In this document: one piece after another, positions 4,201 through 57,790 of the stretch
Numbering within the stretch: the first letter of the stretch is position 1
Layout of the letters: every line of letters starts with the position of its first letter
The notes under the pieces: generated by a model
Seen by the model: the letters and a program-made list of their open reading frames with translations, nothing else
Databases searched by the model: none
Told to the model about the DNA's origin: nothing
Made by a program: the position numbers and the translations under genes
DNA from: Branchiostoma lanceolatum
Lineage: Eukaryota > Chordata > Leptocardii > Amphioxiformes > Branchiostomatidae
DNA length: 64,000 nt
Assembly: GCF_035083965.1 (NCBI RefSeq)
Contig: NC_089725.1
Location: forward strand, 29,149,925-29,213,924
Direction of reading: 5' to 3'

Positions 4201-5435
4201 CTACCGGGGCTTTAGTAGGGCTTATGATGCACTTAGTGAAGCCAGCCCGTAACCATTACAGGATGGCGGCACAAACGACCCAGTACAAAAAGAAGTCATC
4301 AGCAGAAGTGTATTATAATAAGCCTCAAAAAGGCCCCAGGGAGCCTGCTATGGTGGCTAGAACGCTTGAGGCGAAGCTTTTTCCCAGTTGGCTGATATGA
4401 TACTAGTAGAGCAACGGGACTTCGCTACGACTTGCTTATTATATATAATATAGACAAGCGCGCTGCCGGTCAAAACGTGTTAGGTTCTTTTATGTACTAC
4501 TTGATAAAGTTTTGCAAGTTGTGTCATTCATGTGGTGGAAACATTTCTTTGACTTTACGACATCTAAAGAAATGGTGTACGTCGACGTACCTTGGAAAAA
4601 AACTGATTTGCTCCGTTTTATGACAGGCGGTTCATACCATCGCGACTTGCGACCTCACAGCAAAAGTTGGATGAGCCAGTTGTCAGAAAACGGTTCAAAT
4701 CAGAAAAAGGTCGCAATCTTTCCACCCAACCTCCGCTTGAAGAGTAGGTTACAGATCATAAAGTACGACCTTTCTAAAATCCTTCTGTATCAAAACCAAC
4801 AGGCCGAGGACAGGGTGCTGCGGCACGACGGCAGGAGGACGGCCGGGGGCAGGACCCTCCGCACCTGCTCCCTCCGACCCATGGGCATGTACGGGGAGGG
4901 GCTCATGAACCTCTTCGTGGACATCGAGAGGGCGATCGCGAACAAGCAGTCCAGCTACGCCATTGCGAACGACAAGACGCAGCGATGCACCTTCGTGTAC
5001 CTGGACAACTTCCTGCACGCCCTCCGACTAACCCTGGACAGACTCGTCGCCGCCCCCGACATCGTCGGAGGGCAGGTCTACTTCATCAGCGACGACACGC
5101 CCGTCAACAATTACGTAGACCACCGCAAGAACTTCCTGACGGCCATAGGTTTCACCCCGGAAGAGAAACCCTTCCTGCCGATCCGCGTGCTTTATGCGCT
5201 CGGGCTGGTGTTCGAGTTCATTCGGTGGGTCCTCTCCCCTGTGTATAACTTCCAGCCGCCCTGGACCTCGGGCCTCATCCTGGTGTCCAACACCACCATG
5301 TGTCTGAGGTACGACAAGGCCACGAGGCATCTCGGGTACAGGCCCGTGGTGCCGTGGGAGGAGGCCAAAAGGCGCACAGTGGATTGGATAGTGGCGTACT
5401 GGGCATCACGGCAGGGCGGGATGGCTGAAGGGTAG
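1292..5435 (+). CDS. HSD3B: 3-beta-hydroxysteroid dehydrogenase/isomerase-like, 3' exons
   Basis: The family oxidises 3-beta-hydroxysteroids with NAD and isomerises delta-5 to delta-4, as ER or mitochondrial membrane enzymes. Visible coding exons are 1292-1444, 3971-4146 and 4803-5435 (stop TAG); they join in frame to about 320 residues. Landmarks in order: VIIHTAALLD; INVKGTEVMLRSC across the first junction; INVSSVEAFGPN with the catalytic serine region; YATTK, the YxxxK motif; LRPMGMYGEG; YFISDDTP; then a hydrophobic segment at VLYALGLVFEFIRWVLSP that matches the membrane anchor of the family; and WEEAKRRTVDWI at the end. The N-terminal GxxGxxG exon is not in the window. The second intron starts with GC (GAG|GCAAGT) instead of GT. 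A LINE lies in the first intron and a MITE in the second. Family assignment is firm; the exact steroid substrate is unknown and a sterol-4-alpha-carboxylate dehydrogenase relative cannot be fully excluded. Confidence 0.88.
1495..3072 (-). mobile_element. 5'-truncated LINE (non-LTR retrotransposon)
   Basis: Minus-strand reading frames at 2827-3087 and 1646-2830 give the end of a reverse transcriptase: NVSKTKVLVFSKG, a thumb region with KPILLYGSEL, and a cysteine-rich end (FCPFCPNRIEDEFHFIMEC). The two frames belong to one protein and a frameshift separates them near 2830-2920. CATTCGGCG at 1486-1494 and 3073-3081 looks like a 9-bp target-site duplication, placing the insertion inside the dehydrogenase intron. 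The clade cannot be assigned with confidence. Confidence 0.8.
3149..3350. mobile_element. MITE with TGCTAGGGTCACATTTC ends, copy 1
   Basis: Left end TGCTAGGGTCACATTTC and right end GAAATGTGACCCTAGCA are inverted, followed inward by GCCGGGGCCCG/CGGCCCCGGC. A second copy lies at 62698-62902 with the same ends and similar interior (AAAGACAACAAAAACACAAAA in opposite sense). Confidence 0.75.
3351..3970. other. Intron sequence, nothing recognised
   Basis: Between the MITE and the second visible dehydrogenase exon I see no coding similarity, RNA gene or repeat with clear ends. Confidence 0.3.
4147..4148 (+). other. GC splice donor
   Basis: The exon ending KAE is followed by GCAAGT, and the next exon begins AEDRVL after CAACAG. 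The joined frame matches the family (human SKKLAEKAVL region). A GC donor within a perfect AG|GCAAGT context is the known minority splice class. Confidence 0.7.
4183..4359. mobile_element. MITE with TAGCCTCCATAGCAGGCTC ends, copy 2
   Basis: Same ends and interior as the copy at 775-944; here inside the second visible intron of the dehydrogenase. Confidence 0.75.
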
Positions 5436-5889
5436 TATTGAAAAGGGATAACTCAAAGGATTTGTTCCAAATCTGTGCTTGATAGATATTTGAATATTCT
5501 AATTTTTCTAATGAATCATGGCGAACATATGCAGGTATATTGGATTCATATTGCTGTGTCCTACAATTGGAAGTTTTCTTTGTTTCGACTGTGTCAACCT
5601 CTCTGCAAAGTAAAATGGACATCAAAGCTACGACAATGTTTTATGATCTTTTGCTGTTTATGCATTGATTATCATGTCCAACATTTAGTACAACGTGACA
5701 AAACTGTAGTATCAGACAACGTTACACGTTCGTTGCCTCATTATTTCATTGTAGCATCAGCGTCTGATGGTTTGGAGTCAGGAGTGTTCAGTGACAACAG
5801 GTTCCACGGCTGAACTGGAATCTGTAATTCTGTGAAATATGATAGAAACGTGTTACATGTATCTGTTACTGCGTTATTGTTGTTGATTT

Positions 5890-5895
5890 TTATTT
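5890..5895 (-). terminator. Poly(A) signal, deiodinase A
   Basis: TTTATT on the + strand is AATAAA on the minus strand, about 230 bp past the SECIS. The equivalent position in deiodinase B (10533-10538) has the same hexamer in a similar context. Confidence 0.55.
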
Positions 5896-6123: not shown

Positions 6124-6198
6124 CGTGGTGGTCTCGTTCTCAGGTCCTCACCAGCGCCCTAGGCGTTTCCGGCGAGACCTTCATATTCTCTCACCACG
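6124..6198 (-). promoter_or_regulatory. SECIS element (form 2), deiodinase A
   Basis: On the minus strand a lower helix CGTGGTG/CACCACG leads to the non-Watson-Crick quartet ATGA (6181-6184) opposite TGAGA (6138-6142). The upper helix pairs AGGTCTCGCC with GGTGAGGACCT, with one bulged G. The AA motif (6166-6168) is followed by a small apical stem CGCC-TAG-GGCG, which makes it form 2. It lies in the 3' UTR of a gene with an in-frame TGA, as required for Sec insertion through SECISBP2. The 7-bp lower helix, quartet, AA and mini-stem are all kept in the second gene. Confidence 0.9.
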
Positions 6199-6944: not shown

Positions 6945-8302
6945 TTATCCGGAGAATTTCTGCAGCCAGTCACTGACTTCCTCCGGCAGGTAGCCATCCG
7001 GACCCGGCCCGCCCTTGTAGACACACACTCCGTCCAGCAGGATGTACAACCTGCGAGCAGTTTTACAGAAATATGAATGAACCAGTTTGAAAACAGCAGT
7101 CGAGTGACTATCACACATATAGGAATGTACACACAAAGTTTGAAGACTATTGCGTCTGGGGATAAAAAGATTTTGGTACTTTTGTATTAAAGAAGCATTG
7201 AACTCTGCCATTGTTGGAAGGGTCCTCGGGGAATTCAAAAACTCGATCGCTATCATGCTCACCCTGCGTTCAGGCTTCAACGCTGGGCAAAAATCATGAC
7301 AGAAATAGTAGAGAGCAAATTGAAACCTATGCAAATGATGATCGTAGATAAAGTTATCTTGATTAACACCTCCCTTTTTGTATTTTTCTTTCTTTCCGTT
7401 TGCGTTAATGGCAACTTTCGTTTTCACTGTACCACTGCAAGGAGAAATTACGATCTTTAGTGTTGCAATATCTAAATATAAAAACAACATTGTCATCATT
7501 TTGGTAAGTAGTCAAAGCGCGAAACGGAACGATGCTATAGATAAATGTCGTTACCAGCTTTAGAGAACACGAAGGGATTATTTCTCCAGGTAGTTAGTGA
7601 AGCTAGAGCCAACAAGAAGTGTAATCACCTGTCGGGTATTGCAGCGTAGGCGCGTGCGGCGGCGTTGTCCATGGTGTCCACCAGGATGGGACAGGGGATG
7701 TCGTGCAGAGCCAGCATCTCCGCCGCCGCCAGTCTCTCCTCCAGACACCGGTGCTGTCGGATGTCCATGTTGTTGCTCATGGCCCAGCCGTCCGTGGGGT
7801 GCGCCTCGGCCACGTACACCACCACGAAGTCGGCCACGGCGGCGAAGTCCGACATGATCCGCTTGACCACGTCCAACTTCGCCCGGAACGGCTGTCAGGT
7901 GTTGCTGCCGAAGCTGATGACCAGAGGGCGGGCCGCCCGGGCGAACTGGAGCAGCCGGCAGGAGCTCCCGTCAAGCCTGACGAGGGAGGGGTCGGCGGCC
8001 TTGCCTCCCTCAAACACCTCAGCCTCCAGGTAGATCATCTCTATGGAGAGGATTCCTTTCCACGCAGTCAGACTTGTCATCTCGTACAACTCCTGATAGC
8101 ACTGCTCGGGTGTCGTCAGAACCCCTGGGGCCACCTTCTCTGCTTCTGTCAGATATAGAGACAGAATTGGTCGTCTGAGAGCCGGGAGGAGGCATGCCGT
8201 CCTAGCTAGAACAGAAACGACGACGAAAAGCGGCGTTCCCAAGACACAGAGCAGCAGAAACCGCACATGGATCCAAGCTCTTTTCATATGGATGGCAGCC
8301 AT
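6945..8302 (-). CDS. DIO: Iodothyronine deiodinase A, selenoprotein
   Basis: Removes iodine from thyroid hormones or related iodothyronines by a Sec-dependent reaction at a membrane. Coding exons on the minus strand: 8302-7629 and 7050-6945 (stop TAA), joined AG|G across a 578-bp intron with GTGATT donor and CAG acceptor; 259 residues. Order: ATG at 8302 starting MAAIHMKRAW; a single membrane helix at about residues 12-32 (FLLLCVLGTPLFVVVSVLA); PLVISFGSNT then TGA (7895-7897) as Sec136; QPF; the thioredoxin-fold segment VVYVAEAHPTDGW with the conserved Glu-His; CLEERLAAAEML; DTMDNAAARAYAAIPDR; LYILLDGVCVYKGGPGPDGY; and WLQKFSG at the end. Length and landmarks match vertebrate DIO1-3. The TGA is read as Sec because homology continues through it and a SECIS lies downstream. 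Which vertebrate type it resembles functionally cannot be told. Confidence 0.95.
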
Positions 8303-8458
8303 TGCACTGTATAGTGCGGAATGACTCAGCTCACCACAAGGCGCAAATCAAACAACTGAGAGCAAACAAAGGTGTTAAACATTGCACTTTAGACGTGCCA
8401 GTATGTACATTCACTTAGGCTATGTTAATTTGCCAGTGACTATATGGATGACAAATGA
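8303..8458 (-). promoter_or_regulatory. 5' flank of deiodinase A
   Basis: The stretch with GCGGAATGACTCAG, CGCAAATCAAACAA and GAGAGCAAACAAA recurs in shortened form at about 13540-13690 and 13870-13950 upstream of deiodinase B, so it is a duplicated 5' UTR/promoter. TGACTCA at 8322-8328 resembles an AP-1 site (weak evidence). Confidence 0.4.
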
Positions 8459-8550
8459 CCAGTGCAATGGCCTAGTGGGTAGAGTGTTCGCCCTGCATGC
8501 GGTTACGGGTAGGTCGTGAGTTCGAACCCCGGCCGGGTCATACCAAAGAC
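8459..8550 (+). mobile_element. tRNA-derived SINE head
   Basis: An A-box-like TGGCCTAGTGGGTAGAGTG and a B-box-like GAGTTCGAACCCC are spaced as in a tRNA, but no cloverleaf ends are present. It is a SINE head and not a tRNA gene. Confidence 0.55.
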
Positions 8551-8899
8551 TTTAAAAACAAGAGTTCCACGACCTCATATCTCCATGAACAATTCTATTC
8601 ATGCAAATAACTTACACATTTGCATAATATATGCTTGATCATTAACACCTTTATCTAACTTACACATGTTGCAATATTGACAGTTCTATAATTTTCCAAT
8701 TAGATGAATTATGGTGTTTTAGCATTAATTATGCAAATGAGGAATTTATTTGCATAATTGGTATCTGTTGATGATCCACTTTCCATAACTACATACGTTA
8801 CATGTATTTGAGTCTGATAATGGAAAACACTGCAAATATAGATTTTCCTCATTAGTTATGCAAATCAAGTCCTAATTTGCATAATTTGCACTTCATTGT

Positions 8900-9245
8900 G
8901 TACATCTCTGTCTAAGCTACCTGTATACTAGAGGGCCCAAACCCACACCAAGTCTTCATTACATCACAAGCTATCTGCCACCAAAAAATCAAGACTATAG
9001 CACGTCCAGGTCAAAAGATATAAAAATGGAATTTCTGCTGCAGTACCAAGGTCACATACCAGGGGACCAAAAATCGACCTTGAATTTCGGCTTCACAACA
9101 TCCGCCCACATACCAAATATCATGCATCGTAATCCATCTAGAGGTTCTTGAGTTATGCTGACTAGAGTGGTCCGGAAACACAAACAGACAAACAAACAGA
9201 CAAACAGACAGACAGACACACCCAAAACAATACCTCCATTTTTCA
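8900..9245. repeat. Dispersed repeat ending in CAGACAAACA tract
   Basis: The segment with ATCATGCATCGTAATCCATC, GTTATGCTGACTA and the CAAACAGACAAACA tract recurs inverted at about 33293-33530 (ACTCAAGAACCC, GTGTCTGTGTGTTTG), so it is an interspersed element. It covers part of the gap between the deiodinases. Confidence 0.6.
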
Positions 9246-9605
9246 TGGAGATAATCAGTGGACTAGCCCCCTGCTGTAGTGACTTGCACAAAGTTGTGTG
9301 GCCCAGGGCTGCCGAAACGGAGATGGGCACCGTCTTATGCACCGTAAAGAGCGGGGAGGACTTTAACTTAAATATGGATGACATCCTTTGGGGACCCCAA
9401 AACCAATGCGAGCGTGCGACTAAAATAAAAATTGCCTTCGTTATGAAACCTACGTGGTCAGGAAGGAGGATGATCAAAACTAACACACAGAGTATGGTAA
9501 ACTGAATAATAAACTCTTCACTAAAGTTTTGTTTTTTACAGCTTCCCTTTTGGCTTTGGAATTGACTTTGGCATTGTACGACATTAGTATCCGTTTTCTA
9601 ATCTC

Positions 9606-9772
9606 CATATTCGATTTTCGCGCCCCGTGTAGATCTGCTTGGATGCGTGTTATAACCTTGTTCTTTTGCGACATGGGGCAGATCCTACGGGGCTGGCTGG
9701 AGCTTATCTGGCTGACTGGACCCTCTCTGGCTAGCATATACGATTTTCGCGCCCCGTGTAGATCTGCTTGGA
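9606..9772. repeat. Direct repeat pair containing AGATCTGCTTGGA
   Basis: CGATTTTCGCGCCCCGTGTA followed by GATCTGCTTGGA occurs at about 9611-9642 and again at 9739-9770. AGATCTGCTTGGA is also the end of the hAT-like MITE family seen elsewhere in the window. Confidence 0.5.
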
Positions 9773-10015
9773 GATTATCCGTTTTCGACATATTTTTTTC
9801 TTTAATGTACAGCATATGTTTTCTCATGCAGCTGCTTTGTACGATTAACAGTATGGCCGAAAACGTTATTTCTAACCGGAAGAAAATCGATGCGAGCGCG
9901 TAGATGTCATGCATATGATCAAATCATCCTGGCCTAATCTAAAAACAAACAAAGAACCTGCGTATGAAATATATATATCATGGCCAATAGCGGAACTGCG
10001 GACACACACCCCTGT

Positions 10016-10056
10016 CACAAACAAACAAACAAACAAACAAACAAACAAGCAAACAT
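10016..10056. repeat. (CAAA)n microsatellite
   Basis: About nine CAAA units in a row, possibly the tail of a retroelement. Confidence 0.7.
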
Positions 10057-10301
10057 ACACACCAGCTGACTACAAAACCTCCCATGATCTCCTATGAGTA
10101 GTCCTTCTTTTATCGACAACGATCAAGGAATGCGGTAGTTGAACTCTACTATTTTGTCTTTCTCAGGCAGCGCAGTCCTTATAAAGATGGCACTGAGGTA
10201 GTCACGTGTGACTACCATCCACCAATCAGAGGACTTTCTCGACACAAATATTACGTTATACTAGATACGTTGATGAAGGTTAGACATCCAGGTAGTAAGA
10301 T

Positions 10302-10388
10302 ACGCCAAAAATAGTTACTCAAGCAACTGGTTAAATTTTCAAAATTTTCAAAATTTTATCCAGTTGCTTGAGTAACTATTTTTGGCGT
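10302..10388. repeat. Perfect 29-bp inverted repeat
   Basis: ACGCCAAAAATAGTTACTCA and nine further bases at 10302-10330 are exactly complementary to 10360-10388, with an AT-rich 29-bp spacer. It lies between the two deiodinase transcription units, beyond the poly(A) signal of B. It may be a short transposon fossil. Confidence 0.75.
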
Positions 10389-10532
10389 TAAACTAGATAA
10401 GCCGTTGTAACATATTTTATATCCTTCTGCATCAAGAGGGACAGACGCCTTGTGTTCACCACGCATGCTTAGACTTCTCAGTGAAAGTATGATAGAAACG
10501 TGTTATCCGTAACTGCATCATTATTGTTGTTG

Positions 10533-10538
10533 TTTATT
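10533..10538 (-). terminator. Poly(A) signal, deiodinase B
   Basis: AATAAA on the minus strand, about 230 bp past the SECIS, at the position equivalent to that in gene A. Confidence 0.5.
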
Positions 10539-10769
10539 CTTATTTACCAGGGGAAAAGTATATATCCAACTCTTGGGGAAACCCCTAACAAAAGTTACTT
10601 AAATAGACTCAGACAAAGTCGATCAAAATGACAACAGATAACAAAATTGTAAAAGAAAGTATGACATCCCACAGATGTCTTATTGCAGCATCAGCGTTTT
10701 GATATCTTTATTAGAAGTGTTTATTGACAGGTTCCACAGATGAAATCCAGAGCGAAGCCAAGGTGAACC

Positions 10770-10844
10770 CGTGGTGGCCTCGTTCTCAGGTTCTCACCAG
10801 CGCCCTAGGCGTTTCCTGCGAGACCATCATGCTCTCTCACCACG
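10770..10844 (-). promoter_or_regulatory. SECIS element (form 2), deiodinase B
   Basis: Minus-strand lower helix CGTGGTG/CACCACG, quartet ATGA (10827-10830) opposite TGAGA, upper helix with CTCG/TGAG and CAG/CTG pairs, AA motif, and apical mini-stem CGCC-TAG-GGCG. Differences from the copy in gene A fall mostly in positions that keep the fold. Confidence 0.9.
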
Positions 10845-11149
10845 AACCCACCTTGACTTCACTTTAACTGTCAACTGATAGAAAATGACTATTTCGTGTC
10901 TGATTTGCAATTATATTTTCCTGACGTACAACAACTAAGCGACACGAAACTTTTCAGATCATTTTCAGATAACGTGATACTATCACAAATATAACTTGTC
11001 AGGTCATTGTTAAAGAAATAATCTAACTGGTTAACTTCTCTATACTTCACTTAAACATTATGAGGATATAGCAAGACGAAATAGATTACCAAATAAGTAA
11101 GATTAGAGTCAAACACCATACTAATTATTACCTTCATAGCTGTAACAGT

Positions 11150-11470
11150 GGGGTTCAAGCCCACTGTCTGACCAGTCTGACGGGTCCGGGCCTTTTAACC
11201 TAGCGGTTATGGCATGCAGCCTTTGGACTTACGGGCCCGAGTTCGATCCCCGGGAGCCAGGAGTCTGTTTTTACTCGCCTCTTGTGTTTCACTGGTTCCC
11301 ACGCCGAAGTGTGGCAAAGTGTGAAACACAGGGATATCGAACTCGGAGATTCGAGGACGAATCTTAAAAAACTGAAAACGAGGAGTAGTGTAACAGTGGG
11401 GTTCGAGCGCCACTAACTGACCAATCTAACGGATACGGACCTTTTAGCCTATCGGCTATGGCTATTATGT
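11150..11470. mobile_element. tRNA-derived SINE in the deiodinase B 3' UTR
   Basis: TAGCGGTTATGGCA and GAGTTCGATCCCCGGG look like A and B boxes. GTAACAGTGGGGTTC flanks the unit at about 11146 and 11390. Related pieces occur at about 42440-42500, 46020-46180 (inverted) and 62385-62690. It sits between the stop codon and the SECIS of deiodinase B, lengthening that UTR. Confidence 0.55.
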
Positions 11471-11508
11471 TTCATAGCTATGGAAAGCACCCATCCCTCT
11501 GCTTTGAT

Positions 11509-13280
11509 TTATCCCGAGAATTTCTGCAGCCAGTCACGGACCGCCTCCGGCTGGTAGCCAGCCGGACCCGGCCAGCCCTTGTAGACACACACTCCGTCCA
11601 ACACGATGTACAACCTACGGGCAAGATTGCATAGATATGAATGAACCAGTTTGAAAACAGCAGTCGAGTGACTATCACACATATAGGAATGTACACAAAA
11701 AGTTTGAAGACTATTGCGTCTGGGGACACAGAGATTTTGGTACTTTTGTTTTAAAGAAGCACTGAACTCTGCCATTGTTGGAAAGATCCTGGGGGAATTC
11801 AAAAACTCGATCGCTATAATGCTCACCCTGCGTTCAGGCTTCAACGTTTGACAAAATAAACTGGATTCAGGCATAACAATTTAGTTCCTGATGAATGAAC
11901 TTGCAATAAACTTTATCAATATGATACCCACTTCTGGAGTGAAATGCTCCTTTAACTTTGATCAATTATTTCTTCGTTGTTATCTTATCAATTGCATAGC
12001 ATTATGTTTCACTTGAAAGCTTGTTATTTCTCAAACTTTGCACTGATACCGACTTGTTATGATCCTGCGTTCAAGGGTCGAACACCAGGGTTGACCATGC
12101 GAGCGGGTCACTGAAAACAAGACCGCCGAAATTCCGCTGCCAGCACAGTGTCTGGCGTTGAGTAAGGAATTTGGACACTTTTTTGGGCGCCTACCAACGA
12201 AATCAGTCATGTGTCTTGTTGCACAAAAGTGTAACATATTTACACGAGGTATCATTTTAAAGGAAAAAAGACAAGTTTTCAATGATATATTAAATCATTA
12301 AAAAAACAAGGGACATGTCATCAAGAGAAATTTCGGCCCTTTTTTCTCACGGCCTTCGATTTTTGTTGTTGACATAAGTAGCCCTGGTGCTCAACCCTAA
12401 AATGTGCAATCATAACAAACAGAATGTCTTTGTAAAAGACAATAAACAAACTTTCCAATAATGTATAATGCAGTGCAATTGATAAAGTATTCAAGGAGAT
12501 ATGGTCCCCCTAACTTTTTGTGTTGAGTTTATTCATATTGCTGATAGTGATACAGATGAAGACCGCATAACGGATCAACAGGTGTGTGACTCACCTGTCC
12601 GGCATCGCTGCGTAGGCGCGTGCGGCGGCGTTGTCCATGGTGTCCACCAGGACAGGGCAGGGGATGTCGTGCAGAGCCAGCATCTCCGCCGCGGCTAGTC
12701 TCTCCTCCAGACACCGGTGCTGCCGGATGTCCATCGACATCCCCCCGCTCATGGCCCAGCCGTCCGTGGGGTGCGCCTCGGCCACGTACACCACCACGAA
12801 GTCGGCCACGGTGGCGAAGTCCGACATGATCCGCTTGACCACGTCCAACTTCGCCCGGAACGGCTGTCAGGTGTTGCTGCCGAAGCTGATGACCAGAGGG
12901 CGGGCCGCCCGGGCGAACTGGAGCAGCCGACAGGAGCTCCCGTCGAGCCTGACGAGGGAGGGGTCGGTGGCCTTGCCTCCCGGGAACACCTCAGCCTCGA
13001 ACCAAGACGCCAGGATGGGAATGAATCCTTTCAACGTAGAAAAGCTCATCATTTCGCACAAGCGTTGTTCGCACTGCCCGGGCGTCGTCAGCATCCCCGG
13101 GGCCTCCTTGTCTGCTAGTTTCAGCATTAGAGACAAAATTTGTCGTTTGAGGGGCGGGAAGAGGCATGCTGTCTTTACCAAGGTGGACAAGAGCAAGAAA
13201 AGCGGCGTTACCAAGACATAGAGCAGCAGAAACCGCACAAACCCCTGGGCGTTCTTCAACTGGACAGCCGCGGAGGCCAT
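11509..13280 (-). CDS. DIO: Iodothyronine deiodinase B, selenoprotein
   Basis: Tandem paralogue of the gene at 6945-8302, same orientation and same two-exon structure. Coding exons 13280-12595 and 11614-11509 (stop TAA) join AG|G with a GTGAGT donor; 263 residues. ATG at 13280 (MASAAVQLKNAQ), membrane helix at FLLLYVLVTPLFLLLSTLV, PLVISFGSNT then TGA (12867-12869) as Sec138, QPF, VVYVAEAHPTDGW, DTMDNAAARAYAAMPDR, LYIVLDGVCVYKGWPGPAGY, WLQKFSG. The part around the active site is almost identical to A, while the N-terminal 100 residues have diverged clearly, which suggests either gene conversion of the catalytic exon or strong constraint on it. A SECIS follows at 10770-10844. Confidence 0.95.
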
Positions 13281-13537: not shown

Positions 13538-13690
13538 CAGCCATCATGACACCATAGTGCCGCGGAATGAGATCAGCTTACCTTTGCATCGACAGCACTT
13601 TTATCACGTGACGCAAACCAAACAGTTGAGAGCAAGCAAACGTGTTTAAACGGTAGACTAGCCAGTATGTACTTCCACTCAGCCAGGGCG
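13538..13690 (-). pseudogene. Deiodinase 5' remnant 1
   Basis: Starting CAGCCATCATGACACCATAGTG this matches the region around the start codon and 5' flank of deiodinase A (GCAGCCATTGCACTGTATAGTG, CAAACAACTGAGAGCAAACAAA, CCAGTATGTACATTCACT). No coding body follows, so it is a duplicated promoter/5' UTR fragment that deiodinase B might use or a trace of a lost copy. Confidence 0.55.
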
Positions 13691-13807
13691 GAAAAGATGC
13701 ATATCATGATCAACAGAATTTGTACATTTCATCCTATAGATGGATTCAATTACATTCTAAAAGTAGAAGGAGATAACCTTTACTGTGTACAAATAGGTAA
13801 ATATATC

Positions 13808-13950
13808 AAAGAAAAGCGGCGTTCCTAAGATACACTAGCAGAAACCAGTGTTCCCGAGTGTGGAAGCCATGGCACTATCATGAGTGGCGGAATGAGGTCA
13901 ATTCACCTTTACATCAACTATGACCCTACTTAGATCACAAGATGCAAATC
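13808..13950 (-). pseudogene. Deiodinase 5' remnant 2
   Basis: GAAAAGCGGCGTTCCTAAGA, CAGAAACC and GGAAGCCATGGCACTATCATGAGTG match the beginning of exon 1 of deiodinase A with small gaps, followed by the same 5' flank words (GCGGAATGAGGTCA, ATGCAAATCAAACAA). It keeps only about 20 codons' worth of the N-terminus and is broken. Confidence 0.6.
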
Positions 13951-16100
13951 AAACAATATGTCTCCCAGTCAGCTAAAAACAAAAGGAACCAGCCAGACCC
14001 GCACACGCCTAGGAAGAGGAGACTGTACGGAACCAGCACAGATGCTGGGCATGGCCTAGTCTCTTCAAGACTCCATACAAAGGTCGCTGGGCAAATATCA
14101 GAAATTGGTCAAATAGACAAATACGTATGCCAGAGGAGTTAAGTTACCCGGTCCACTGGGAGTACAGTACACCAGGCCGGCTAACTCATTCTCTCATGTT
14201 AGAGTTTAGGTAGCATCCACTACCTTTCGTTGACTGAGCAAAATCTTGGATACTACATGACCCTACATGAAACGGCTGAAAGTGCTGGAAAGTTCGACGC
14301 GTAGGCCTCTTTTCCTGTTGAGGGTGGTTTTGTACATTCTCTCATGTATTGTCTCTCTGGATCCAACTCCACGTTTGAACCAGCGGGGTTCGCGGTCTAG
14401 GATATACATGTATGTGGGTTCGAGGATGAATGTGAAGTCTGAAGTTACTTAGCGGTCAGTCTCCGGTGGAAAGCGAGCGTCACTGAGACCACACCGCACG
14501 AGACGGATACAGTGAATCATCTTTTAATCAGCACCATCCCAATCATTTTCACATTGATGGCTTCACTTAGTTTCAATCCCTGCTTATCAAAAACTAAACT
14601 CTCTTTTACTTGATCAACAACTTCCAGGCCTACTACTACTAGTATACAGATTTCAATAGTCCTTCCCAAAGAATGTTTTTACACGGGATAAGATATGGCA
14701 CTTAATCTGACTTCACTACAGTCCTGGCTGACTACAGTCCTGGGAATGAGATTAGGTGATGTGTTCAGACAGGACACGCCCCTCCTCTCTTTCCCAGGGC
14801 CCTTAGCGGTGACCTTCTATTGTATATGTAGGACAGTCCACAGAAACTCAGACTGGTCCAGGTACCAGGACTATTTCTATGTCTCAACCTCCATCATCTG
14901 CTTGGAGATTATTTCTTCATCACCTGAAGGCACTTTATCTGGCCAATTGACAAAACTGTTGATGACAGAGGCTTTCCTGTACCGAGTCAAAGTAAAGTAG
15001 TATTTGCCCAGAAGTACATGTACCCAGATAAAAGAAGCACAATTCCAGTACACTCTTATTCGTTCTATAGACTGATTGATAGACTTACAAATGTACTTAT
15101 AATGTAATGTAAATTTTGTTTGTGATCAACTTATCAAATTGTATTTAGAAACAATTTTTACACATTGTTTGGAAATGATTCTATTGTAGAATAATGGTTC
15201 CTTCTTGTTGCACATATGTAGTTGTTCTTATAGTAATGTGAAGCACAAGTGCCACTATATCATAGTTAGTACTATATATAGTACTCGCTCACAGACGAGC
15301 CCACCGACGCTGAACTGATCGTCCGGTAAGATGAAAAGGAACTGATGATGACTATATATACTAATGATCATCTGGAGAAAAAGAATTCCATTGGTGCAAG
15401 ATGTATTACACTTATTTGTACTGGATAGAATATCAGGTCCATGAAGCATTCAATAAATTTTCTTTGAAATTCATATAAAAAGTAAATACTAGTACATAAA
15501 GTCAGTCATCCGTTAAATTCAATTCACAATGGTAGTGCTGTTCACTACATATATGTAAAGAAATATGATATAGAAATATTGCTTCACTGTAGGCAGAATG
15601 AGTTGGGTTCACAAACTCACCTTGTTTCAAAACAAAACCACTAGAGAGATGATAGGGACCCAAGTCTGGTTGTGAAATATGACTGAACAAATTTAGGCTG
15701 AATGTAAATGGTTTCGTTTTGAAAAGAAATTTTAAATGCAAACTTGTGAGGTCCCACCTTTCCTGTAGACACTACTTCTACAATACTTTGCATTGTATCA
15801 GCTCGAACATGCTCTACTTGAGAGGGAAATATCAAATAAGACTGGTCTACTTTGCACATGAAATGAAGCACTATTTGGTCCCTTTGACTGCACAATGCTA
15901 ACAGTACCAGCTACCACTGATGGTTGACACGATACCACAATTCCTTGATAATTTTGAATCAAAATGTTTGAAGTGACATGTTTGACTGCAGGTTCTATTA
16001 AACATTTTCCTTTGAAAAACATAGAGGTTGCTTACCACTTTCCAATATAATAATAAAAGTAGAACTATCCCTACTGATTAAACATGAAATTAAGGTGCAT
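13951..16100. other. Intergenic stretch, nothing recognised
   Basis: I see no exon, tRNA or structured element here. Short open frames (for example 14695-15000) lack homology and splice context. It lies upstream of deiodinase B and downstream of MESD. Confidence 0.35.
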
Positions 16101-16879: not shown

Positions 16880-18591
16880 TCATAGTTCTGTCTTGTCCTT
16901 CTCCTTCTTCTTCTTCTTCTTTGTCTTGTTTTCGTCACCACTCTTTTTACTGCTACCAGAAGACTTCTTGCTCTTGTCCTGAGCGCTGTTGTTGTCTCCC
17001 CCTCCTCCCTGTGTAGCCCCCTTCCCGGGGAACTGCTGGTTCTCGAAGCTGACCTCCGCGCAGCGGTCCTGCTGCACCAGGAAGTCTCTGACCTCGAACG
17101 CCTTGCTGCCGTCCTTCAGCAGGAAGATGGTGCGGTCGTCCGACACGACGTACCGCGTCACCTCGTAGTTCGCGTTGAACAGGCTCGTCTGCCACAGCTG
17201 CGTAATCTCTTCAGTTTCCTTCTGTGTGGGGCTGCCCGACACGGACACGAACATCATCAGGGTCCGGCCCTTGAACGAATGAATGAATGGTTTATTACTT
17301 TTTATATATACAGTATGATACTTAAAATCTGTTGTCATTAGGCAATTTACCATAACATTATCGTTCCTATTTAACAATATAACCATACAAGTTACATATT
17401 CTAAAATCACAAGTAGAAGCTTCCTTTAAACAGGTAGGTTATAAGACAGATATGTGGGGGTCTGTAGTACATAGATCATGTCTATCTACTCGGTCACAAG
17501 GTACAATCTACCTTCTTGCTCATCTTTATGAGGTCCTCTGGCTTGTCGGGGTTGAGGTTGGACAGGTCGATCTTTGGGGCGGGACGGAGGTGTTCGGGGA
17601 GCTCATCTTCCTCCAGCGGTTCCTCGTCCTTTTTGAAAATTTATATGCAAAACAAAGATGAAATGACAATATAAAAAACAATAAAAACATGTGCAGGCAG
17701 AGGGAAGAAGTCTCTATCGTATGGCTTATATTATGAGATGGAAAGATGCGATGAGACAGAGCGTGCTGCAATTCCCTAACTGCCTCATGCGTCACACGAC
17801 GTGGGTCCAGGGAGCCTCTAAATTACATTATGCCCCCTTTCCCTTATACTATTGGTAATTAAAACTGATCATAATATTATTGAACAATATTTGATAAATA
17901 AGAATAAAGTAATACATGTAGAAAATGATACGGATACAATAAGGATATCAGCTTATGAGATAGATTTCTGAATGGTTTTAACATCAGAAAAGGGGAGCTC
18001 ATATATTTGTTTGAAGACTTTTCCATACTGTGACACATTTGTTTACAAATGATGTGCGGAAGATGGGGTTGACTCCCTTATCAAGTGCAATATGTACTTT
18101 CCTACAAATAAATTTTGGTTTTAAAGATTATTGAATATATTGGTGATATTTTCAAATTCCTTAATATATAAATTGGGTCAGATAGCTGAAGTAGACTCTG
18201 GTGAGTCGAATTCCTTCAGTTGGAGTATGGTTTAATTTTTCATTATGTAATTGTAATAGTCTTTGTTGCATATTCCTGCCCAGAAGGGCTAAATGCACAG
18301 AAGACCACATGTGGCCTGTAGGAAACATAATGCAAAACATAAGTTGATAAAATGCTACACTAACATTAAAAACTCAAAAACATGTAAAATACCAACTCAG
18401 ATGAACTTTCAAGCTAACATTGGTGAGATTGTTTCTACCTCCTCCCACTGCTCGAACAGGCGCTCCATGTCCGCGTCCGTGTAGTCGCGCAGGTCCTTCT
18501 TTATCTTCTTGTCCTCCGGGATGTCCTTCTTGGTCCAGACCGACGGGAGGATCAGGGCGCAGCCGAGAAGGATCCAGACGTACCTCGCCAT
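16880..18591 (-). CDS. MESD: LRP chaperone MESD
   Basis: ER-resident chaperone that helps the beta-propeller/EGF modules of LDL-receptor family proteins (LRP5/6) fold, and so acts upstream of Wnt reception. Minus-strand coding exons 18591-18439, 17628-17512 and 17269-16880 (stop TGA) join in frame to 219 residues. Order: signal peptide MARYVWILLGCALILPSVWT; KDLRDYTDADMERLFEQWEE; DELPEHLRPAPKIDLSNLNP and KPEDLIKMSKK; then the core GRTLMMFVSVSGSPTQKETE, LWQTSLFNANYEV, DDRTIFLLKDGSKAFEVRDF and DRCAEVSFENQQFPGKG. The C-terminus is a low-complexity Lys/Ser tail ending KTEL, an ER-retrieval-like signal (mammals end REDL). ATG at 18591 is chosen because the signal peptide follows it directly. The last intron begins with an ATGAATGAATG run at its acceptor side. 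Gene lies head to head with the checkpoint kinase. Confidence 0.95.
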
Positions 18592-34400: not shown

Positions 34401-36528
34401 AAAGTTTAATGAATTTACAGTATCAATGCATGGCACAGAATTACCTGTACTGAACAAACTCTGCTGATAAAGTAGTTTTTAGGAAGTATGGATCAAACTT
34501 GACAATGATTTTGATTCTTTATTTAGCATCACATAGGTGGCATTGTTTAGTATAGTTCTACAAAAATGTCACACCTTTTTATATATACCTATTGCATGGA
34601 CCATGGTGCAGGTAGTATTTCTTTACCTTTACCTTTACCTAGTCCCATCCTCATGCCTGAGGGTCGGGGACCATGGTAGCCTCCAGTATCAGCCTCCTCC
34701 ACTTTCTCCTGTCTCTGGCTCTGTGGGTGCACTCCGCTAGTGAGAGTCCTGTCTATTCACGGATGTCGTCCCCCCACCTCCTTCTTGGTCTCCCACGGCT
34801 CCTCCTACCATTGATCGTTCCTTGCAGTATGTGGGTGGTGATGTTGCCCGCTCTTGTGACATGCCCAAAGTATTGAAGTTTCCGCCTTTTTATGATGTTA
34901 AGCAGTGTTCTTCCCACTCCCAGCTCTTCTAACACAGAGTCGTTTGTGCGGTGTTCAGTCCAGCTGATACGCAGTATCTTCCTGTAGCATTTCATCTCCA
35001 GGGCTTGTATCTTGCGGATGTCTCTGGCATGTAACGTCCATGCCTCACAGCCGTAGGTTACCACAGGCCAGACAAGAGTCCTCAGCACTTTCAGTTTAGT
35101 GGCTGTCTTGAGGGCCCTGTCTTTCCAGATTACATCTAGGCTTCGGAGGGCTGAACGGGCTGCTCCTAGGCGTATGTTGATCTCATGGCTACAGCTGGCT
35201 GTTTGTTCCAATGTGGAACCCAAGTACTTGAATCTTGGGACCTGTTGAAGCTGTTCTCCCCGGCAAGTGGCTGTTACTTGAGTAGGTTCCTTGGCTACGG
35301 CCATCACTTTGGTCTTCTTGGTGCTAATTTCCAGTTGGTACTCACTGGAGGTGCTGTCTGTGGAGTCCAGCAGTTCCTGGAGTCCTTCCAGTGAGGTAGC
35401 TATCAACGCTATGTCATCGGCGAAGCGGAGGTTGTTGATGTTCCTGCCACTTACGTTGACTCCAATCGTGGGCTGCTCCTCCACAGACTCCCTCATTACC
35501 GCCTCTGAGTAGAAGTTGAAACACATCGGCGACAGCAAGCAGCCTTGTCTTACCCCCTTCCTGACCTCGAACCACTCTGTAAGGTCCTCTTCTACTCTCA
35601 CTGCTGCTTGCTGATCCCTGTACAGGTTGCGTAACAACTGAACCAAGTGCCTTGAGACTCCCATAGTTTCCATCACCTTCCATAGTGTCTGATGTCTAAC
35701 TGAGTCGAAGGCTTTCTTATAGTCGATAAAAGCCATGAAGAGCTGCACATTGTTTTCCCTTGCCTTTTCCATCAGTACCCTTAGGTTGAAGATCTGGTCC
35801 CTTGTCCCCACTCTCTTCCTAAAACCCATCTGCTCCTCTGCAAACTCCTGCTCTGCCACTCGCTCCATACGCCGTAGGAGGATTCGGAGAAGGACCTTGC
35901 TGACATGGGATATCAGGGCTATAGTGCGGTGCTCCAAACAGTCAATGGTACCGGGTACCTTGGGGATGGTGATGAAGACAGACTTTACCCAGTCGGATGG
36001 CCATTGTCCAGTGCTGACGATCTTGTTGCAGAGTTTACACAATTGTAGTATTTCTAGCCCTGCATTATTTATACAGAATACATAAATAAACAGGTCTCTT
36101 CTCCTGCTGTGTCCAGGACATCATCAACTTGTACAGAACTGCCGGGAAGAAGATGAGTGAGGTGATGGTGGTTTTCTACACTCTGGAGATCCTGTACATT
36201 GTGGAGCAGCTTCACCGCTGTCACATCATCCACGCGGACCTGAAGCCTGACAACTTCCTCATCAGGTATGAACGCGCACATGCACACACTAATGTACACA
36301 CACACACACACAGATACACACACGCACGGCAGTGGCAACGCTGTCACATCATCCACGCAGACACGGAAACCGATAATTTATACAGTACTTGTAAACACAC
36401 ATCCACACACACACACATACATTCACATGGAGAAGCTCCACTGCTGTCACATTCAAACTGATCTGAAACCTGACAACTTCCTCATCAGGTATGCATATGC
36501 ATATGCATGCACATACACGTACACAACT

Positions 36529-40352: not shown

Positions 40353-41391
40353 TTTTTTTGTTTCTTTAACATAATCTTTATTCATTTTTGAAAAAAAAGA
40401 CACAACAATACAATGTGGATATACAAAAAGCAACCTAAGCCAGGAAAGACAATTTGCATTTTCCCAACTAAATTAATTTTAACAGTGCATAACCAATGTG
40501 TCCCCACTTTAACAAGTGTTTCTCAATCTTCTGTAAGTTTTGGGCAATGATGTACTCAACTTTGTAATAATAGTGTACATAGGCTAAAAAGCCATCTATT
40601 GTAGGAATTTTTAAATGTCTACATTTAAAGATATACACCTTGGCAATTAGTAACAATGTGTTCAGAATGATAGGATAGCCTAATGAACCAAATAAAATAA
40701 TTTTACTTGTAAATCTAAATTCCACGTTCATATGCTTTCTGATCCAGCTTTCTACATCCCCCCAAAATTTTACAAGATAAGAACATTGACAAAAGATGTG
40801 GACGGGAGTTTCCTCCTCAGTCTTACAATAAGAACAAAGTGTATTTTCTGATAATTTCCATTTATAAAGCTTATTCTTAAGAGCAAGAAAATTATGCAAC
40901 AACTTAAATTGAAAGGATCTTAAATAGGAGTCAATAGTTGTTTTATAGGTCAGACTGTAAACTACATCCCATTGTATCTGGTCATTAAACAATTCTATCC
41001 AATATTCCTGGGCTTTACAATGGAAGTCAACACATTTCCTTTCAACTAAGTAAAAACGGTACAATTCCTTGTTTATCTTAAGTCCTTTTACCCACTTGGA
41101 ATATTTTGTAACAGGCATAATAGCTGTTTCACATAGAGAAATACCTTGAATACTTTGTTTCCATTTAAAGGGAATACTGGATAACAATTGTATGAATTTA
41201 AGCTCATCACAAATTCTTCCATATTTACCAATAAATGATCTGTATGTCATAAAGTATCCATCCATGTTCAATAAATCATTAACAAACAAAATTCCTCTTT
41301 GGCTAAAGGTTTCCCAGAAAAAAGGTAGTCCATCAATAAGTATATTGGAATTGAACCAGAGAAATTGTCTCAAGTATTCAGACATATCCTG
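40353..41391 (-). mobile_element. Young 5'-truncated L1-type LINE
   Basis: A minus-strand frame 41385-40468 (305 residues) is open to the truncated edge and has the C-terminal pattern of L1/Tx1-like ORF2: FLWFNSN, RGILFVNDLLNMDG, FQFKLLHNFLALKNKLYKW, LCSYCKTEEETPVHIFCQC (zinc-knuckle-like). AATAAA and a poly-A end are at the 3' side (40351-40385 as poly-T on +). ATAAACATGGTGTTT at 40338-40352 and 41392-41406 is a 15-bp target duplication. Confidence 0.9.
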
Positions 41392-41462
41392 ATAAACATG
41401 GTGTTTACTATAGTCCTGAAAAAATAAATAAGCTCTGCAGCATTAGAAACTTACAAGCATGC

Positions 41463-57724: not shown

Positions 57725-57790
57725 CCGACAACTCTATGACGAGGGAGACCACAAACCGCATCGCGGGGGGTCCCCTCAGATGTGGATGGA
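57725..57790 (+). promoter_or_regulatory. SECIS element (form 2), GPx
   Basis: Quartet ATGA at 57736-57739 opposite GA at 57779-57780; upper helix GAGGGAGACC with GGTCCCCTC (nine pairs, one bulged A); AA at 57753-57754; apical mini-stem CCGC-ATC-GCGG; short lower helix CC-ACA/TGTGG. It lies 383 nt past the stop and before the poly(A) signal. Confidence 0.9.

Follow-up and report, generated by a model that had tools for sequence, protein, structure and literature searches.

Are the two neighbouring deiodinase-like genes of an amphioxus, each interrupted by an in-frame TGA, working selenoprotein genes? The question is raised by a stretch of 64,000 nucleotides (nt) from Branchiostoma lanceolatum (RefSeq assembly GCF_035083965.1, contig NC_089725.1, positions 29,149,925 to 29,213,924 of the forward strand), which we call the window and whose own numbering is used throughout. 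In this window two adjacent genes, A and B, carry a TGA exactly where deiodinases have their catalytic residue. Our analysis suggests that A and B are, with high probability, two functional selenocysteine (Sec) genes of the deiodinase family that arose by tandem duplication, their function being predicted from sequence.

Two tandem deiodinase-family genes with an in-frame TGA

Both genes lie on the minus strand and consist of two exons separated by one GT-AG intron. Gene A runs from an ATG at 8302 to a TAA at 6945 and encodes 259 residues. Its exon 1 (7629..8302) encodes the hydrophobic segment at the N-terminus and the greater part of the catalytic domain, and is followed by an intron of 578 nt (7051..7628) and by exon 2 (6945..7050), which ends with the TAA. 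Gene B runs from an ATG at 13280 to a TAA at 11509 and encodes 263 residues, with exon 1 at 12595..13280, an intron of 980 nt at 11615..12594 and exon 2, again with the TAA at its end, at 11509..11614. The intron position is identical in the two genes, between the second and third bases of the Arg codon in PDR-LY. Besides the final TAA, each reading frame contains exactly one stop codon, i.e. the TGA at 7895..7897 in A (Sec136) and at 12867..12869 in B (Sec138), both in the context SNT-U-QPF. The two proteins are 78.7% identical over 258 aligned codons when the TGA column is left out, and 112 of the 123 aligned codons after the TGA (0.911) encode the same residue. Since there is no other in-frame stop and so many of the later codons agree, the placement of the TGA is not a matter of chance.

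The family assignment runs across the TGA in both cases. Protein A matches the T4_deiodinase domain (PF00837) over residues 56-257 (E 1.9e-59, 201.3 bits) and protein B over residues 48-261 (E 7.4e-57, 192.8 bits), the curated cut-off being 27 bits, and the matches reach position 236 of the 237 in the profile. Among the structures in PDB, both proteins match the catalytic domains of type 3 deiodinase (E 6.1e-42 and 7.2e-40) and type 2 deiodinase (E 2.1e-34 and 2.2e-36), and in the part encoded by exon 1 of gene A 54 of 131 aligned residues are the same as in the type 3 chain. The TGA column falls on the catalytic Cys of the solved chains, with SNT-U-QPF aligned over SCT-C-PPF (type 3) and SAT-C-PPF (type 2). 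The mouse deiodinase constructs described in PMC11592359 carried Sec changed to Cys, and the type 2 chain, 9h48, agrees with the residue numbering given there, including the two Ala introduced for crystallisation. The sequence-only reading of this DNA had proposed two adjacent two-exon genes with a TGA at the deiodinase active site and homology running on beyond it, and the gene models, the PF00837 matches and the PDB alignments all agree with that description.

The codons after the TGA show purifying selection between A and B. Their ratio of non-synonymous to synonymous divergence (dN/dS) is 0.33, and non-synonymous changes account for 14 of 26, where neutral evolution would predict a share of 76% (one-sided p 0.0096). 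Within exon 1 alone the count for this stretch is 8 of 17 (p 0.0085). These numbers suggest that the segment after the TGA is most likely coding and under constraint.

SECIS-like elements beyond the stop codons

Each gene has a candidate Sec insertion sequence (SECIS) of form 2, in the naming used in PMC2874816, on the minus strand past its stop codon. The element of gene A (6131..6194, with helix I within about 6124-6198) lies beyond the low end of the span 6945..13280 that holds the two genes, and the element of gene B (10774..10840) lies between them; the distances from the stop codons are 760 and 678 nt, respectively. The hairpin of A consists of ATGA, a helix of 12 pairs interrupted by a single bulge, AAA, an apical minihelix of four pairs and GA, and all 16 pairs of its helix II and minihelix are standard. 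The element of B is identical to it at 68 of 74 aligned bases and has the ATGA, AAA and GA motifs and the minihelix intact, with 13 of the 16 pairs standard on the structure of A. A fold with 10 helix II pairs still exists for B when the AA is kept unpaired. Candidate poly(A) signals (AATAAA) are found further on in both genes, at 5889..5894 (-) for A and at 10533..10538 (-) for B, and two more candidates for B, starting at 10725 and 10712, also lie past its SECIS.

The Rfam family SECIS_1 (RF00031), with a gathering score of 35 bits, gives 24.4 bits for A and 18.9 bits for B. On stretches of 161 nt, which were picked after the elements had been seen, the E values are 0.0065 (A) and 0.2 (B) across 4227 families, or about 1.5e-6 and 5e-5 when counted for the single family. 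In the whole-window search the element of A has an E value of 2.6 across all families and about 6e-4 for RF00031 alone, and none of the other matches with E up to 10, of which there are 33 in all, belongs to RF00031.

We also scanned both strands of the window with a pattern-plus-energy search and found 10 sites, with A at the top and B in fourth position when they are ordered by helix II energy. When a helix II energy of at most -15 is combined with a helix I energy of at most -13, only A and B are left among the 10. In 60 Markov-random windows 12 sites reach -15 on helix II and none passes both limits, where the null keeps dinucleotide frequencies only and the two thresholds were set from the energies of A and B themselves.

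Judging by these elements and by the coding sequence, Sec insertion is very likely for gene A and likely for gene B, and the SECIS of B is probably functional. The A and B mRNAs would each be spliced from two exons, the form-2 hairpin about 0.7 kb past the stop would recruit the Sec-insertion machinery, and the TGA at codon 136 (A) or 138 (B) would be decoded as Sec. For the related Branchiostoma floridae, an SBP2-like protein is described in PMC2746813, and PMC5330540 reports four tRNASec candidates and 25 selenoproteins, versus the 40 of Jiang et al. (PMC3473315). The earlier claim that true Sec forms are kept here in tandem gains support, as a prediction, from the in-frame TGAs, the SECIS-like elements and the selection on the codons after the TGA. 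The sequence-only reading had named neither the strand of the genes nor any SECIS.

Duplication history and competing explanations

The divergence between A and B is very uneven. Coding identity is 71% in the N-terminal part, 94-96% in the remaining exon 1 and 92% in exon 2. The 3' part of the intron (242 nt of A) is 91% identical, and the 5' part has no meaningful alignment (334 aligned columns at 45%, and 406 positions in gaps). Similarly, the SECIS block is 92% and the 3' untranslated region (3'UTR) beyond it 89% identical, and no alignment is obtained for the 3'UTR between the stop codon and the SECIS. A 91% identical intron stretch is not explicable by protein constraint. Among the first 97 codons 26 of about 72 synonymous sites differ, versus 14 of about 118 in the remaining codons (Fisher p 1e-4), with the split at codon 97 chosen after the alignment was seen. 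An unconstrained split falls best at codon 35, with synonymous change in 7 of 20 versus 20 of 184 same-residue codons, and 6 of 1000 shuffles reach this contrast. The simplest reading would be that gene conversion or unequal exchange homogenised the catalytic part, and that the N-terminus diverged. Upstream of B, the region 13612-13956 contains repeated fragments similar to the 5' flank and the initial codons of gene A, and at 13790..13873 (-) there is a relic that looks like the start of the coding sequence of another copy, with an ATG, a stop after 11 codons and then CILGTPLF. These flank repeats and the relic point to additional exchange.

The same pattern bears on whether A and B could be allelic haplotypes set side by side through an assembly error. 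Amphioxus is highly polymorphic, and the catalytic exon, the 3' part of the intron and the distal 3'UTR are 89-96% identical, which would suit this idea. However, the N-terminal coding identity is just 71%, the introns differ in length (578 versus 980 nt), and neither the 5' part of the intron nor the proximal 3'UTR has a meaningful alignment. Paralogues with later homogenisation fit such uneven divergence better than alleles do, and we consider an assembly error quite improbable.

Several observations weigh against the view that A and B are both working Sec deiodinase genes. The changes before the TGA are indistinguishable from neutral (62 of 90 non-synonymous, p 0.13), and exon 2 alone has a dN/dS of 0.59, with six non-synonymous and three synonymous changes, too few for judgement. 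Both proteins lack the proximal Cys and have Gln directly after Sec, as detailed below. Rfam at gathering thresholds gives no match, as both SECIS elements are below 35 bits, and the score of A in the whole-window search, where no stretch was picked, is modest and lowers our confidence slightly. The element of B is not listed at E up to 10 in the Rfam searches of 10.5 kb and of the whole window, and two unrelated sites, at 57736 (+) and 51736 (+), outrank it on helix II energy alone. On the structure of A it has three non-standard pairs, a U.U beside the core and two that make helix II weaker, and when folded freely it takes a different minimum-energy structure.

The three non-standard pairs and the different free fold of the SECIS of B, along with its lower RF00031 score, could mean that A alone works as a selenoprotein and that B is decaying, its helix II pairing lost and its UGA mostly terminating translation. 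We regard this as unlikely: the reading frame, splice sites and start of gene B are all intact, its catalytic domain is nearly identical to that of A, and its SECIS retains the motifs, the minihelix, most of the bases of A and the 10-pair alternative for helix II. It is also conceivable that Sec is not used in either gene, the TGA being an ordinary stop that is read through, or one that ends a truncated membrane protein. Such an explanation would account for the Rfam scores below the gathering thresholds, but it leaves aside the SECIS-like elements with their core motifs past both stops and the selection on the later codons, and a product terminated at the TGA would have neither the active-site residue nor the remaining catalytic domain. 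It appears extremely improbable to us, and two functional Sec genes remain our preferred explanation.

Catalytic residues and relation to known deiodinases

A and B have the same catalytic domain as the vertebrate Dio1, Dio2 and Dio3, with Sec at the same place. The proton-relay residues named for Dio2 and Dio3 (Ser, Thr, Tyr, Glu, His and His), including the substrate-contacting His assigned in PMC11592359, are all present at the aligned positions in both proteins. Based on the positions given in PMC11592359 and PMC9141512, the residues kept between the vertebrate enzymes and our pair are Ser(-3), Thr(-1), Tyr, Glu, His, Pro, Trp, His and the distal Cys, the last one being found in both A and B. 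Other positions differ. In the PDB alignments neither protein has the proximal Cys of the Dio1/Dio3 type of re-reduction; this position, two residues before Sec, is Asn in both, versus Cys in Dio1 and Dio3 and Ala in Dio2. The residue after Sec is Gln in both, versus Pro in the aligned deiodinases. The position of the gate residue Phe258 of Dio3 is Pro and the neighbouring Glu is Asp, and the clamp position, Arg275 in Dio3 and Lys241 in Dio2, is Pro, as reported for some Dio1 in PMC11592359.

At the N-terminus, the Kyte-Doolittle maximum over a 19-residue window is 2.64 for A (residues 15-33) and 2.49 for B (residues 17-35). Such hydrophobicity is as expected for the membrane segment of a deiodinase, and the segment would insert into the membrane and anchor the protein. 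In the thioredoxin-fold catalytic domain, the selenolate would take iodine off an iodothyronine-type substrate, with the conserved proton relay assisting the deiodination. With Asn in place of the proximal Cys, re-reduction would be expected to bypass the glutathione route of Dio1, which is reported to need this Cys (PMC9141512), and may resemble that of Dio2. A Cys placed at the proximal position of a Sec-to-Cys Dio2 did not enable glutathione use (PMC11592359), and hence other residues matter too for the reductant. We would expect from these residues a Dio2-like reduction together with a loose, Dio1-like substrate clamp. We speculate, tentatively, that the resolving Cys, the gate Phe and a charged clamp were lost from the pair, or were absent from the outset, and that it uses a different reductant and substrate, e.g. 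Triac or another iodinated tyrosine product, and that gene conversion keeps the catalytic domains alike while the anchors diverge, bringing the same chemistry to two cell sites. This combined picture is possible but doubtful as a whole.

Clusters of Sec deiodinases in amphioxus are already in print. The table of Jiang et al. (2012; PMC3473315), which includes several incomplete genes, gives the number of selenoprotein deiodinases as nine for B. floridae, 11 for Trichoplax, 12 for Capitella and four for Lottia, some of the deiodinases being clustered. The B. floridae genes named Bf.DI are like ours in that they have a Sec-TGA, stand partly in tandem clusters and have SECIS described. The amphioxus cluster presented there is different: its three genes occupy both strands and Bf.DI_b is followed by two SECIS, whereas here two genes on one strand have one SECIS each. 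The A/B pair may be among those nine deiodinases. The mussel McDx and McDy (PMC8481496) are likewise two invertebrate Sec deiodinases with SECIS in the 3'UTR, from a mollusc and known from cloned cDNAs. Dio2 and Dio3 are put among the vertebrate-only selenoproteins in PMC3316567. A literature text search, whose reach excluded figures and supplements, found no occurrence of the strings TUQPF, SNTUQP and SNTCQP.

An amphioxus deiodinase that acts on Triac without being a selenoprotein was described by Klootwijk 2011, as cited in PMC8699336. It belongs to the same family and presumably the same lineage, and is a non-selenoprotein by its title, in contrast to the TGA and the SECIS-like elements of A and B. 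The sequence-only reading had expected Sec and Cys forms to coexist. Such coexistence follows from the publications (PMC3473315, and Klootwijk 2011 via PMC8699336), but the 64 kb contribute no Cys form: a tblastn search of both proteins against the whole window yields only A and B at E <1, with no further catalytic domain, and all other lines have E of at least 1.7. It had also linked the pair to the origin of thyroid hormone signalling; the pair has little bearing on it, as the selenoprotein deiodinases listed in PMC3473315 include ones from a placozoan, a mollusc and an annelid.

Gene finders that take TGA as a stop split Sec deiodinase genes in two. According to PMC8699336 (2021), non-vertebrate chordates have a single deiodinase homologue, with none in Asymmetron, and their deiodinases are apparently without a membrane segment, the G domain being missing in two of three cephalochordates. 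The window has two genes, each with a membrane-type segment and the G domain, and so these statements may reflect annotation rather than biology. The amphioxus receptor is said to bind Triac and not T3 or T4 (PMC4692385), and A and B offer two specific genes with which to ask whether, in such an animal, the work is shared between Sec and Cys deiodinases.

The window has other features as well. Beside gene A there is an open frame at 4449-5435 (+) that probably forms the final exon of a gene like 3-beta-hydroxysteroid dehydrogenase (PF01073, E 7e-20). An inverted repeat, long and almost perfect and with a loop rich in A and T, lies at 10303-10387, past the poly(A) end of gene B and upstream of gene A. 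The microRNA-like Rfam matches at 10293-10395, which are below the gathering score, are a product of this repeat and were set aside, and a tRNA search found none. The open frame at 16880-17425 (-) probably represents one exon of a gene for a MESD-like chaperone (PF10185, E 7e-38), and two further open frames, at 34753-36120 (-) and 40468-41442 (-), are retroelement pieces with reverse transcriptase (PF00078) and zinc-binding reverse transcriptase (PF13966) domains.

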